Source of the DNA: Neoroseomonas lacus
Lineage (GTDB): Bacteria; Pseudomonadota; Alphaproteobacteria; Acetobacterales; Acetobacteraceae
Direction: 5' to 3'
DNA length: 64,000 bases
Assembly (NCBI RefSeq): GCF_014644535.1
Contig: NZ_BMKW01000002.1
Location: 459,034 to 523,033 of the forward strand
In this document: positions 21,762 to 27,051 of the stretch, piece after piece
Numbering within the stretch: position 1 is the first letter of the stretch
How the letters are laid out: every line of letters begins with the position of its first letter
Made by a program: the position numbers and the translations under genes
The notes under the pieces: model-generated
Seen by the model: the letters and a program-made list of their open reading frames with translations, nothing else
Told to the model about the DNA's origin: nothing
The model's database searches: none

Positions 21762-22224
21762 CGCGCTGGGTCATGCGTACCGCGGCGAACCAGCCCCTCT
21801 GGCGACCACCGGGGCCGGTTCGCGCGCGCATCTGCGAGAGGGGATGACGGCGGTGCGTCCCGGCCGCGCCGAGAGCCTGGCTGACGGGATCGCCCCATGC
21901 CAGGGCCACATCACCGCTTGCGTCAGGAACACGACGCTGCTCGTCCGGACACCGGCCGGCACCCCGACGCAATGCCATCCCCGGAGGCCGAGCTCGACCT
22001 CCAGGGTACGCTTTTCTTCCACGACCGGCCTGAGAGGGTCGCTGGCGGCGCGTGCGTCTTCGGCCCCCCATCGGGGCAAGCCGCTGCCGGCGCCCCGCCG
22101 GCCTTCTGTCCCTTCGCACATGTCGACGCGGCGCAGCAGCCTGGCGCACGATGCGGCCACGCGCGACATGTCTGGTCCGGCCTGGTCCCGCCTGCGCCGT
22201 CAGGCGCCGCCTGAAGGGGGTTCG
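21762..22224. other. Intergenic region without recognised gene
   Basis: About 460 bp before the ABC-type gene. An in-frame ATG at 21844 would extend that gene by 127 residues, but the extension is low-complexity Arg/Ser/Pro/Thr-rich sequence without resemblance to a protein. Frames on the other strand are equally unconvincing. No regulatory element was recognised. Confidence 0.45.
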
Positions 22225-24042
22225 ATGATCGGCACCACCGAGCCAAGCCACCCGCAGCACTTCGTCCGCGACTTCGCCAGGATCGCCGGCCCATACTGGA
22301 CCGGGCGGGGGCGTTGGCGGCCGCGGCTGCTGACCACGATGCTCGCCCTGCTGGTAGTCGCCCAGGTGGCACTCGCGATCCGGCTGAACATCTGGAGCGC
22401 GGATCTGTTCGATGCGCTGGAACGGCGCTCGACTGACCGCGCGATGACCCAGATCGGTATCTTCGGCCTCATCGTGCTTGGCACCATGGCGACCAACACC
22501 GCACATCTCGTCGTGCGACGTCATCTGCAGTTCGATTGGCGACGCTGGCTGACGACGCGGGTGATCGGCGACTGGATGGAGGATGCGCGGCACTACCAGG
22601 CCGACCTCATCCCCGGCGACCACGCCAACCCGGACGGGCGGATCGCCGAAGACGTCCGCATCGCCACCGAAGTCGCCATCGAGCTGGCCAGCACCCTGTT
22701 CTACTGCATTCTCCTGCTGATCACCTTCGTCGGCATCCTGTGGTCGCTGTCAGGCTGGATCAGCGTTGCCGGCCTCGACGTGCCCGGGCACCTCGTCGTG
22801 CTCGCCTTCGTCTATGCCGGCACGGGCGCCGTGGTCGCCTTCCTGCTGGGCCGTCCACTCGTGCGCGCCACCGACACGCGGCAGACGAAAGAGGCCGATT
22901 TCCGCTTCAGCCTGGTGCGCGCGCATGAGAGCGGCGAACCGATCGCCGTCGCGCGCGGCGAACCGCTGGAGCGCGAACGCCTGGAGACGGTCTTCGAGAC
23001 CATCGCGCGATCCTGGTACGACCAGTCCATCGGCCTGGCGCGGTTGCTGGCCTTCTCCTCAGGCTATGTGGCGCTGGCCGGCGTGTTTCCGATCCTGGTC
23101 GGCACGCCGCGCTTCCTCGATGGCTCGCTCTCGCTCGGGCGGTTGATCCAGTCGGGGCAGGCGTTCCAGCAGGTCACCGCCGCGCTGTCGTGGCCGGTCG
23201 ACAACCTTGCCCTGATCGCCGGATGGCGCGCCTCGGTGGAGCGTGTGCTGATGCTCGACGAGGCGGTCCGCATCGTTGCGCTGGAAGCCGCACGCACCGG
23301 GGAGACCGCGCTCAACCTCGACCGCGTGCCGACATCGCAACTCGGGGTCCGCGACCTGTGGGTCGCAACACCCGACGGCACCACCATGCTGTCGAACCTC
23401 ACCTTGCAGGTGGAGCCGGGCCAGCACGTGCTGGTTGACGGCGACCCGGAGGCGGCGAGCGCGTTGTTCCGCGTGCTGGCCGGCATCTGGCCCTGGGGCC
23501 GCGGCCAGGTGGTTCTGCCGGCCGATGCCGGGATGATCGCTGTCGGTCCCTGGCCGTTCCTACCGCAGGGATCGCTGCGCCAAGCGTTGGCCTTTCCGGG
23601 GACGGCGGACCGTCACGATGATGCGGCGCTGCAAGACGCGCTTGCCGGCGTGGGTCTCGCACATCTCGCGGCGCGGCTGGACGAAATGGCCGACTGGACG
23701 CGCGCATTGACCCCGGCGGAAGTGCAGCGACTGTCCTTCGCGCGGATCATTCTGTTGCGTCCGCACTGGATCGTACTGGGCGATGCGACGGATGCGCTCG
23801 ACCCGGACTCAGCCGATGCCATGCTACGCGTGATCGCTGAACGGTTACCGCAAGCCGGCATCGTCCTGATCGGGCGACACCCGGGATCCGCGGAGATCTT
23901 CAGCCGGCGCCTGACGCTGGAGCGTGCTGCCGACGGCGAAGTCCTGCTCAATGAGGTCTACGCAAGGCGGCAGGCGGCCAAGATGCCGCGCCGCCGGCCA
24001 CTCGGCGTGATCGATCGGATGCGAGAAGGGTACGGGCGCTGA
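22225..24042 (+). CDS. SbmA/YddA-type ABC membrane protein with degenerate ATPase domain
   Basis: A 605-residue protein: an N-terminal SbmA/BacA-like membrane domain (about residues 30-330, six helices, with FDALERRSTDRAM, NPDGRIAEDVR and the ADFRFSLVRAHESGEPIA coupling region) joined to a YddA-like nucleotide-binding domain (about 370-580). The core ATPase motifs are lost. Walker A reads GDPEAASALFR, with Ala for the Lys. The signature reads LTPAEVQRLSFAR instead of LSGGE. Walker B reads WIVLGDATDALD instead of LDEATSALD. The switch His is displaced (IGRHPG). The Q-loop (FLPQGSLRQAL) and D-loop remain. SbmA and BacA lack an NBD and run on proton force, so this may be an intermediate form. 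ATG at 22225 follows AAGGGGG. Confidence 0.85.
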   Translation: MIGTTEPSHPQHFVRDFARIAGPYWTGRGRWRPRLLTTMLALLVVAQVALAIRLNIWSADLFDALERRSTDRAMTQIGIFGLIVLGTMATNTAHLVVRRHLQFDWRRWLTTRVIGDWMEDARHYQADLIPGDHANPDGRIAEDVRIATEVAIELASTLFYCILLLITFVGILWSLSGWISVAGLDVPGHLVVLAFVYAGTGAVVAFLLGRPLVRATDTRQTKEADFRFSLVRAHESGEPIAVARGEPLERERLETVFETIARSWYDQSIGLARLLAFSSGYVALAGVFPILVGTPRFLDGSLSLGRLIQSGQAFQQVTAALSWPVDNLALIAGWRASVERVLMLDEAVRIVALEAARTGETALNLDRVPTSQLGVRDLWVATPDGTTMLSNLTLQVEPGQHVLVDGDPEAASALFRVLAGIWPWGRGQVVLPADAGMIAVGPWPFLPQGSLRQALAFPGTADRHDDAALQDALAGVGLAHLAARLDEMADWTRALTPAEVQRLSFARIILLRPHWIVLGDATDALDPDSADAMLRVIAERLPQAGIVLIGRHPGSAEIFSRRLTLERAADGEVLLNEVYARRQAAKMPRRRPLGVIDRMREGYGR

Positions 24043-24387: not shown

Positions 24388-24669
24388 CTAGGCTGAAACC
24401 AGCACCTCGCCGCGCGTGACGACCGGCGGCTGTGGCAGCAACTCGGTGAGGTTCGCCGCGACGATGCCGCGCACGGCCTCATGCGCCGCCTCGGCATGTT
24501 CCCGGGTATCGAAGAGACTGACGGAGAACACCCCCTCCTCGCTGCGCCCGGCCCAATAGGCCTGGAAGCCCGGGTGCCCCTTCAGCATCGGCAGGACCAA
24601 GGCTTCGACGTGACGCACGATCTCCTCGACCGATCCGGTCGCGGCGTAGCTGCGGATGGTGACGTACAT
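24388..24669 (-). CDS. ABM-domain (antibiotic biosynthesis monooxygenase-like) protein
   Basis: A 93-residue ferredoxin-like alpha/beta protein. MYVTIRSYAATGSVEEIVR, MLKGHPGFQAYWAGRSE and the FDTREHAEAAHEAV helix fit the dimeric ABM fold used by small cofactor-free monooxygenases and stress proteins. No catalytic residues can be assigned. It is a single-gene unit; the start ATG at 24669 is followed upstream by a GGGAGG-type ribosome-binding site. Confidence 0.7.
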   Translation of the reverse strand: MYVTIRSYAATGSVEEIVRHVEALVLPMLKGHPGFQAYWAGRSEEGVFSVSLFDTREHAEAAHEAVRGIVAANLTELLPQPPVVTRGEVLVSA

Positions 24670-24812: not shown

Positions 24813-25574
24813 TCAGCCAGCCACAGCCCTGGCCACCATGGCGGCCGCGGCCGCGGCGCTCGCGCCGATCATCACGGCCTGGACGGCCCCGCGCAGCGCC
24901 GGCAGGCCGGTGGCGCAAGCGCGCAGCCAGCCAAGCCCTGCCATCGCGATCCCGGTCAGCGCCGCGGAGATGGCGAGGGCGGTGGGCGCCCCAGTGACCA
25001 GGATGAAGGGCGCGAGCGGCACCAGCCCGCCCGCCACGCTGGCGAAGCCGGTGGTCAGGGCGGCTTGCGCCGCACGCTGCGGCTCGGGTTCCTTCAGGTC
25101 GAGTTCGAAACGCATCATGAAATCGACCCAGCGGCGCTGATCGGCACAGATGGAGTCGACCGACAGGCGCAGCGCATCCCCCCGCACGCCGTAGCGATGC
25201 AGGATGGCGGCAACCTCCCATCGCTCGCGGTCGGCGTACTCGACCGTCTCCTCCTCCTCGCGCCCGCGCTCGGCCAGGTAGTGGTCGGCCTCGTTGCGCG
25301 CATCGAGGTAACCGCGAAGGCTCCGGGCGATGCCGCCGGCGGCGATCACGGCGAGGCCCGCGGTCACCACCAGCGGGTTCGCCGCGCCGGCGCCCGACAG
25401 GCCGGCGGCCAGGGCAAACGGCAGGGTCAGCGCATCCGCCGCGCCGATCACCAGGTCGCGGACGACGGCATTCTGGGCGACGTGCATTTCCTCATGCGGC
25501 GGGCCGGCCGGCATGGCCCAGAGGCCGTCTCGGTTCAGCGTCTCGGCAGCGGGGCTTGGTGCGGGCGTGTCCAT
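24813..25574 (-). CDS. VIT1/CCC1-family transporter
   Basis: A 253-residue membrane protein of the vacuolar iron transporter family. An N-terminal region leads into DLVIGAADALTLPFALAAGL, the substrate-path helix with conserved Asp. The cytoplasmic acidic/helical domain follows (YLAERGREEEETVEY), then three more helices. The Glu-rich segment corresponds to the metal-binding domain of VIT1. It likely exports or sequesters Fe2+ or Mn2+ by proton antiport. It is divergent from the Ca2+/H+ antiporter gene 64 bp away, making this a small cation-transport island. Confidence 0.85.
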   Translation of the reverse strand: MDTPAPSPAAETLNRDGLWAMPAGPPHEEMHVAQNAVVRDLVIGAADALTLPFALAAGLSGAGAANPLVVTAGLAVIAAGGIARSLRGYLDARNEADHYLAERGREEEETVEYADRERWEVAAILHRYGVRGDALRLSVDSICADQRRWVDFMMRFELDLKEPEPQRAAQAALTTGFASVAGGLVPLAPFILVTGAPTALAISAALTGIAMAGLGWLRACATGLPALRGAVQAVMIGASAAAAAAMVARAVAG

Positions 25575-26902: not shown

Positions 26903-26938
26903 AGGCATCGTCTGCCCCTCGGAGACCGTTCGAAAAGC

Positions 26939-27051
26939 CCGGCACCGGCCCGCACCCCCACCCGGCCACCCACGTCAGTATCCTGGAATGGGTGGCCGGG
27001 TGGGGGTGCGGGCCGGTGCCGGACCTCAAAATGCGCCCCCTGGCGCATTTT
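26939..27051. repeat. Dispersed hairpin repeat, family B (copy B2, perfect 34-bp inverted repeat)
   Basis: Positions 26939-26972 and 26989-27022 are exact reverse complements (34 bp), separated by 16 nt (CGTCAGTATCCTGGAA). A second perfect hairpin, AAAATGCGCC-CCCT-GGCGCATTTT, follows at 27028-27051. The outer arms include CCGGCCCGCACCCCCAC. This is the best preserved B unit; related copies are at 0.5, 33.3 and 50.7 kb. Confidence 0.85.

Follow-up and report, generated by a model that had tools for sequence, protein, structure and literature searches.

The half-transporter gene at positions 22225..24042 (+) of the window (the whole stretch of 64,000 nucleotides of Neoroseomonas lacus DNA that was analysed) encodes a member of a single clade of YddA/BclA-type proteins, in which the P-loop is one residue short and the C-terminal nucleotide-binding domain (NBD) has lost ATP motifs, keeps its predicted fold and evolves under purifying selection. 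The explanation that best covers these findings as a whole, and that can be regarded as moderately probable, is a clade with a single-origin loss of the P-loop, whose members would act as homodimers with dead NBDs and would transport their substrate independently of ATP.

The frame is open throughout, as the original prediction stated, and codes for 605 amino acids from an ATG at 22225. This ATG is taken as the start because it is directly preceded by AAGGGGG, a likely ribosome-binding site (22214..22220, +) that is exact in six of the nine loci whose start regions were compared, with a similar purine-rich site in the remaining three. The assignment of the whole gene draws on the ORF, the Pfam matches and the relatives, which are of similar length. 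The transmembrane domain (TMD, residues 13-345, 22261..23259, +), delimited by Pfam and the AF2 model and carrying clade-specific residues (H94, R99, H189, Q267, and P324), is of the YddA/BclA type, matching ABC_membrane_2 (PF06472) at 4.7e-38 and 131.6 bits (cut-off 24.4). The match to SbmA_BacA (PF05992; 6e-18, 65.8 bits) is lower than in the intact paralogues (114.6 and 140.3 bits), and that to ABC_tran (0.091, 13.8 bits) falls under its cut-off of 25. The NBD fold without ATP motifs (residues 372-568, 23338..23928, +) is delineated by AF2, Foldseek, motif columns and conservation; it is followed by a C-terminal tail (residues 569-605, 23929..24039, +), which is conserved in Roseomonas-type members and has a low pLDDT (about 43-56 from residue 571). 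The AF2 model (pTM 0.80) has block mean pLDDT values of 83-96 over residues 361-560, and a C-terminal NBD fold of the kind present in YddA/BclA-type half-transporters is thereby predicted. Rv1819c (PDB ID: 6tqe) is both the best solved relative by sequence (1.3e-59) and the best fold match in the PDB (Foldseek E 1.2e-23, TM-score 0.65, 591 alignment columns).

The window protein lacks the motifs of ATP drive (Walker A, Walker B, signature, and switch His), as is apparent from its alignment to intact relatives. The P-loop GxSGxGKST corresponds to GDPEAA-SA within the shortened loop GDPEAASALF (residues 406-415, 23440..23469, +), where the Walker A Lys column is gapped; the exact position of the gap depends on the alignment, the shorter loop itself does not. 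The Lys had been thought to be replaced by Ala: its loss holds, a simple replacement does not, the loop being one residue short and the Lys column empty. Nor is the Q-loop kept, as had been claimed, with Pro in the Gln column of AVGPWPF (versus FLPQRPY; residues 439-445, 23539..23559, +). The former signature LTPAEVQR (residues 495-502, 23707..23730, +) reads LTPAE in place of LSGGE. In the former Walker B and catalytic Glu segment (residues 518-522, 23776..23790, +), LDEAT of intact relatives is LGDAT, with Gly for the Walker B Asp and Asp for the catalytic Glu, while the former switch GHR is GRH (residues 550-552, 23872..23880, +), with Arg in the His column and His one place later. For the signature, Walker B, the catalytic Glu and the displaced switch His, the alignment thus agrees with the predicted ATPase domain devoid of catalytic motifs.

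Relatives of the protein were sought at several levels. A scan of one genome per species (84,980 species, with a profile alignment of 18 members) confirmed at least 427 relatives, of which the best 80 were kept and named; the named near matches among these best 80 of at least 427 are Roseomonas and Neoroseomonas records. In an order-level sample of 150 genomes, at least 13 carry a pseudo member (i.e., one without Walker A), namely 11 at 50% identity or above plus L169 and L172, all 13 being motif-checked; 63 of the 150 have some match at 1e-60, with motifs checked in part of them. A phylum-level sample contains a related gene at 1e-50 in 81 of 398 genomes, and two of the 30 loci fetched are pseudo, one of them from the window's own genome. 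Altogether, the collection amounts to 171 near-full-length sequences, of which 103 lack Walker A, 55 have it and 13 are SbmA/BacA (some organisms occur twice). Five fragments (L005, L021, L031, L077, and L080) were left out before motif counts, and dereplication at 97% gave 78 pseudo, 54 intact and 12 SbmA/BacA sequences. Pseudo members come from records of Neoroseomonas, Roseomonas, Roseococcus, Elioraea, Caldovatus, Thauera, Ferrovibrio, Desertibaculum, Magnetospirillum, Azospirillum, and Methylomonas; the 78 comprise 41 Roseomonas-type sequences and 37 more distant ones, the latter being grouped by identity and not forming one clade.

The P-loop is one residue short, with a gapped Walker A Lys column, in 78/78 pseudo members, and the Lys is present in 54/54 intact ones. 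The loss of the ATP motifs is beyond chance or sequencing error, because the same lesion recurs in all 78 relatives without Walker A and in a second full copy in the source genome (6.4 Mb), which is 89% identical and has lost the same motifs; the sequencing-error reading is ruled out by this copy and by the many species that carry the same loss. As for related Acetobacteraceae, in which the original prediction proposed to look for the same loss, the P-loop deletion is common to all pseudo members examined. No close orthologue with intact Walker A and Walker B was found among the sequences fetched: intact relatives within the genus are separate paralogues (35-41% identity), and two paralogues in the source genome (39% and 35% identity to the window protein) keep intact ATP motifs.

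A tree of 67 rows was built from the columns of the membrane domain alone and rooted, by choice, on SbmA/BacA. In it, the 33 pseudo rows form one clade at 100/99, which spans Roseomonas-type Acetobacteraceae, Magnetospirillum, Azospirillum, Methylomonas, and Thauera; L056 and L119 are absent from it as near-copies at 97%. On this rooting the clade nests among intact YddA/BclA/Rv1819c-type members, forming with 12 intact rows a group at 100/99, the nearest forks between being weaker (91/68 and 87/57). As the deletion is common to all members examined, it most likely arose once, in the common ancestor of the clade. At the base of the clade stand L169 and L172, a sister pair from two genomes of the same family with the same shortening of the P-loop and other loop letters. 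Walker A status changes once on the tree, the Walker B Asp column eight times and the catalytic Glu column 12 times, counts that include the intact rows. Both Walker A and the Walker B Asp are lost in 41/41 Roseomonas-type sequences, with Gly replacing the Asp in 40 and Asp replacing the catalytic Glu in 27. Among the 37 distant sequences, the residue at the Walker B Asp position is Gln (22), Glu (10), Asp (3) or His (2), and the catalytic Glu is retained in 27. Since the states of Walker B and the catalytic Glu differ between the two sets, the P-loop loss is, as read from the aligned sequences, the shared earliest step, the other motifs having decayed later by different routes.

Could the domain still use nucleotide in some unusual way, binding it or another ligand to gate the membrane part? 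The fold is predicted to be intact, conservation persists at G406 and L414, which lie around the P-loop, and at R502 and R507 past the signature, and two of the three distant members that keep the Walker B Asp also have the catalytic Glu (LDEAT) and the signature LTLGEQQR. The switch column itself contains His in 11/37 distant and 3/41 Roseomonas-type members (23/37 and 40/41, respectively, have His one place past it), and distant members that keep the Walker B Asp or the switch His may preserve a trace of nucleotide use. Nevertheless, the P-loop Lys, glycines and Ser/Thr, the Q-loop Gln and the Walker B Asp are gone in the window protein and in nearly all Roseomonas-type members, and nucleotide use as a general explanation is highly improbable.

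Purifying selection on the NBD, which the original prediction had suggested looking for, is evident from dN/dS values obtained by a simple counting method at fairly high dS. The NBD value is below 1 in every pair counted, and its median in the window's group (28 pairs) is 0.185 versus 0.128 for the TMD. The corresponding NBD/TMD medians are 0.186/0.151 and 0.327/0.254 in two other pseudo groups, and 0.337/0.289 and 0.109/0.057 in intact control groups. A decaying pseudogene or a sequencing error can practically be dismissed: a third copy in the source genome is indeed truncated, yet two full copies there are open, as are orthologues across many species, the ribosome-binding site and start are similar across loci, and dN/dS is well under 1. 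The pseudogene reading is refuted by this conservation across species.

Of the 195 NBD columns, conservation extends to both groups in 32, is confined to intact members in 25 and to pseudo members in 16; by inspection, 19 of the 25 intact-only columns lie in the P-loop, Q-loop, signature, Walker B, D-loop or switch. Within the pseudo clade, conservation is lower in the NBD (0.486) than in the TMD (0.587), the reverse of the intact relatives (0.507 versus 0.444), and for this reason the constraint on the pseudo-clade NBD, as estimated from these sequences, is called relaxed but real. The lower NBD conservation across the clade also fits a slow relaxation. The TMD carries residues of its own: R99, G138 and Q267 occur in 78/78 pseudo members, H94 in 96% and H189 in 92%, and none of them in the 54 intact ones. 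Position 138, Gly in the pseudo clade and Gln in most intact members, belongs to the segment NPDGRIAED, which is invariant except for Pro136 in 51 aligned members. The single clade, the NBD dN/dS below 1, the confidently predicted NBD fold and the loss of conservation mostly at ATP-site columns support the proposed maintained pseudo-ATPase.

A departure from ATP use within this family has been described for the SLiPTs (the secondary peptide transporters SbmA/BacA). According to the available part of Ettema et al. (2026, PMC13316013), these transporters gave up ATP from a YddA-like ancestor, have no NBD and carry a glutamate ladder (E193, E203, E269, E276, E287, and E378); TM0 helices and the absence of coupling helices are named there as SLiPT features, and only E203 and E287 are given as ladder gaps in YddA. 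The window protein had been proposed as a link between ATP-driven YddA and proton-driven SbmA, which the data do not support. Its ladder consists of E193 and E276 only, both of which are common in intact ABC members too. Among 32 pseudo members aligned with SbmA, E193 and E276 occur in 32/32, E203 and E287 in 0/32, and E378 in 24/32, being absent from the window's subgroup; E269 occurs in 0/32, in an unsure column where the aligned YddA shows Asn too. Eight aligned intact members have E193 in five cases, E276 in eight, E378 in seven and the other three ladder residues in none. In the TMD tree (67 rows), SbmA/BacA form their own clade with the window protein outside it and intact ABC rows between it and the pseudo clade, and joining the two clades is weakly rejected (AU p = 0.0376). 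The SbmA-intermediate reading is rejected on the tree, the AU test and the ladder residues, with two reservations, the length of the SLiPT branch and the modest AU p of 0.0376. The pseudo clade seems to have departed from ATP use separately, as the second such case in the YddA-like family. Like SbmA/BacA, it would have given up ATP from a YddA-like starting point, and the TMDs of the two are related, whereas the SLiPTs lack an NBD and the pseudo clade keeps a predicted NBD fold on a separate branch. Because E203 and E287 are missing, the proton route of the SLiPTs would be unavailable as such.

Another reading takes the protein as the degenerate side of an asymmetric exporter, whose other half would be an intact ABC half-transporter from elsewhere in the genome. 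According to the available part of a review (PMC7756269), heterodimeric exporters commonly have degenerate sites, and a fair signature in some distant members could serve the site of a partner. An intact paralogue served as the query in 15 distinct carrier genomes, each counted once. Eight of them have at least one further YddA-type match, as would suit a heterodimer, but seven have none: G004, Roseococcus suduntuyensis and Caldovatus aquaticus (completeness 98-100%), and Methylomonas sp. LW13, Paramagnetospirillum caucaseum, Azospirillum agricola and Thauera sp. 2A1 (no completeness figure; the record of Methylomonas sp. LW13 is titled complete genome). An obligate partner of the same family is ruled out for these seven and, given their gene content, is unlikely for the clade. 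In the flanks of 81 loci, many of them short, no YddA-type partner was found either; 11 of the 81 contain a weak match to some ABC NBD at least 2.5 kb away, and a partner from another ABC family may be involved. In TM287/288, TmrAB and ABCC1, degenerate ATP-site motifs have likewise been kept in evolution (PMC7756269, available part), but one consensus site remains there, whereas both would be dead in a pseudo homodimer, and no half-transporter of the same family that could be the intact-site partner defining an asymmetric exporter was found in the seven genomes. The heterodimer is, overall, very unlikely.

The preferred reading, that of an ATP-independent homodimer, can be outlined as follows. 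An ancestral half-transporter of the YddA/BclA/Rv1819c type would have suffered the one-residue P-loop deletion, leaving its NBD unable to bind and split ATP normally, after which Walker B, signature, Q-loop and switch His would have eroded differently along the branches. The two dead NBDs of the homodimer might serve as a structural clamp or hinge, and the substrate might move without ATP, either down its own gradient or with an ion gradient as the driving force; the residues involved would differ from the full glutamate ladder of SbmA (the clade-specific H94, R99, H189, and Q267 being candidates). Compared with YddA, BclA and Rv1819c, type IV half-transporters of similar length, TMD family and predicted NBD fold, the pseudo clade differs by its missing ATP motifs, the one-residue P-loop deletion and its own TMD residues. 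Transport by pseudo members, if any, probably proceeds without their own ATP, because relatives in many bacterial species have lost the same ATP parts.

An experimental parallel is provided by LmrA, for which the available text of PMC6155054 reports that deletion of the Walker A Lys leaves 4% of the ATPase activity and that transport without nucleotide depends on ion gradients. The deletion mutant is inhibited by ATP, and its cells show no ethidium efflux (same source); the loss of Lys alone thus gives no working ATP-independent pump. ATP binding, too, would be expected to disappear in a natural protein that took this route, and the missing P-loop glycines fit that expectation. The LmrA Lys deletion and LmrA-MD resemble the pseudo clade in the lost Lys and in the reported ion-coupled transport by the membrane domain, but they are laboratory constructs in another ABC family, and ATP still binds to the mutant and inhibits it (PMC6155054, available part).

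Genomic neighbourhoods point to a possible substrate in the distant members. Neighbour genes were called by a codon-position score in G+C-rich contigs, and some calls are doubtful. A GH1, GH4 or GH5 glycosidase gene flanks 24 of the 37 loci L079-L116 (one fragment omitted, near-copies not yet removed); in 19 of the 24, the match edges are no more than 200 bp apart. GH1 lies upstream on the same strand in Desertibaculum and most Azospirillum and downstream in convergent orientation in Magnetospirillum types, while GH5 lies downstream on the same strand in Methylomonas. The called frames of GH1 and transporter share four bases (GTGA) in Desertibaculum, and in L098 the GH1 product scores above the NCBIfam threshold for beta-glucosidase. 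No glycosidase was found near the 41 loci L037-L078, near the window's gene or near 32 intact controls, all of which carry Walker A; among eight further pseudo stretches one has a glycosidase, L200, which is the same place as L093. The contrast of 24/37 with 0/32 corresponds to a Fisher p of 2e-9, which is not clean, as the loci lack independence and the pattern had already been seen in them when the test was devised. The adjoining glycosidase genes suggest a glycan substrate for distant members, potentially beta-glucoside or glucan-like.

These neighbours also bear on the idea that the protein does not transport at all but acts in the membrane as a sensor, a scaffold or a regulator whose dead NBD binds other proteins. 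The lost ATP site in a kept fold would suit such a role, and no neighbour gene common to the whole clade was found when one was sought. However, the TMD is the more conserved half, with its NPDGRIAED segment nearly unchanged, and many distant members adjoin glycosidase genes, which makes this reading unlikely. The ATP-independent transporter can be extended, tentatively and with more doubt than confidence, to a second independent origin of ATP-independent transport: an old family of alpha-, beta- and gammaproteobacteria with the dead NBD dimer as a mechanical part, driven by ions via H94, R99, H189 and Q267, its glycosidase-linked members carrying beta-glucosides or glucan fragments.

How a primary ABC pump is converted to a secondary transporter is an open question, for which SbmA offers only the end point, with the NBD gone. 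The pseudo clade retains the NBD and forms a graded series, Walker A being dead in all members examined and Walker B alive in few. Natural proteins become available for testing how the conversion proceeds, and for asking what role an NBD has when it is unable to use ATP. No description of this clade was found in the PMC literature (titles and abstract starts, among the matches listed), and the word stem 'degenerat' was not found in PMC13316013. Smith et al. (2025, PMC12003926) report BclA in nine of 30 Rhodospirillales species, the available text containing 'Walker' only as an author's name. Literature matches to 'bacA' in Azospirillum likewise proved to be an author's name.

Several minor observations concern individual loci. 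The first 12 plasmid matches, among the matches listed, are all from Azospirillum (44.6-46.3% identical) and annotated as 'ABC transporter ATP-binding protein/permease'. The Azospirillum loci L101, L109, L113, L114 and L116 lack Walker A, and the annotation of the plasmid copies, which are known by annotation only, may be a naming error. L147 (wider stretch L199, genome G299), counted as intact and as a control, may have decayed independently: its Walker A is intact, but its signature (LALDEQ) is unusual, Asp replaces the catalytic Glu and the switch column contains Arg. In seven of the 41 loci L037-L078 (two being contigs of one organism), the transporter is preceded at 85-118 bp by a VIT1-family gene on the same strand; no VIT match was found in the 32 controls. 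The window has a VIT1-family gene at 24813-25574 (-; PF01988, 1.1e-50), 867 bp from the transporter; it is a different gene from the one in the seven loci (about 31% identical). Three of ten neighbours gave no Pfam match, and none was obtained for the 93-aa window ORF 24391-24669. The third copy in the source genome (contig C2:639290-639718, L207) ends after residue 143 and runs on, close to the contig end, into DNA that does not match the gene. Finally, a short repeat at about 26916-27000 of the window, at the edge of the compared slice ending at 27000, recurs at L204:5361-5455 near the second full copy, where it is present in both orientations.
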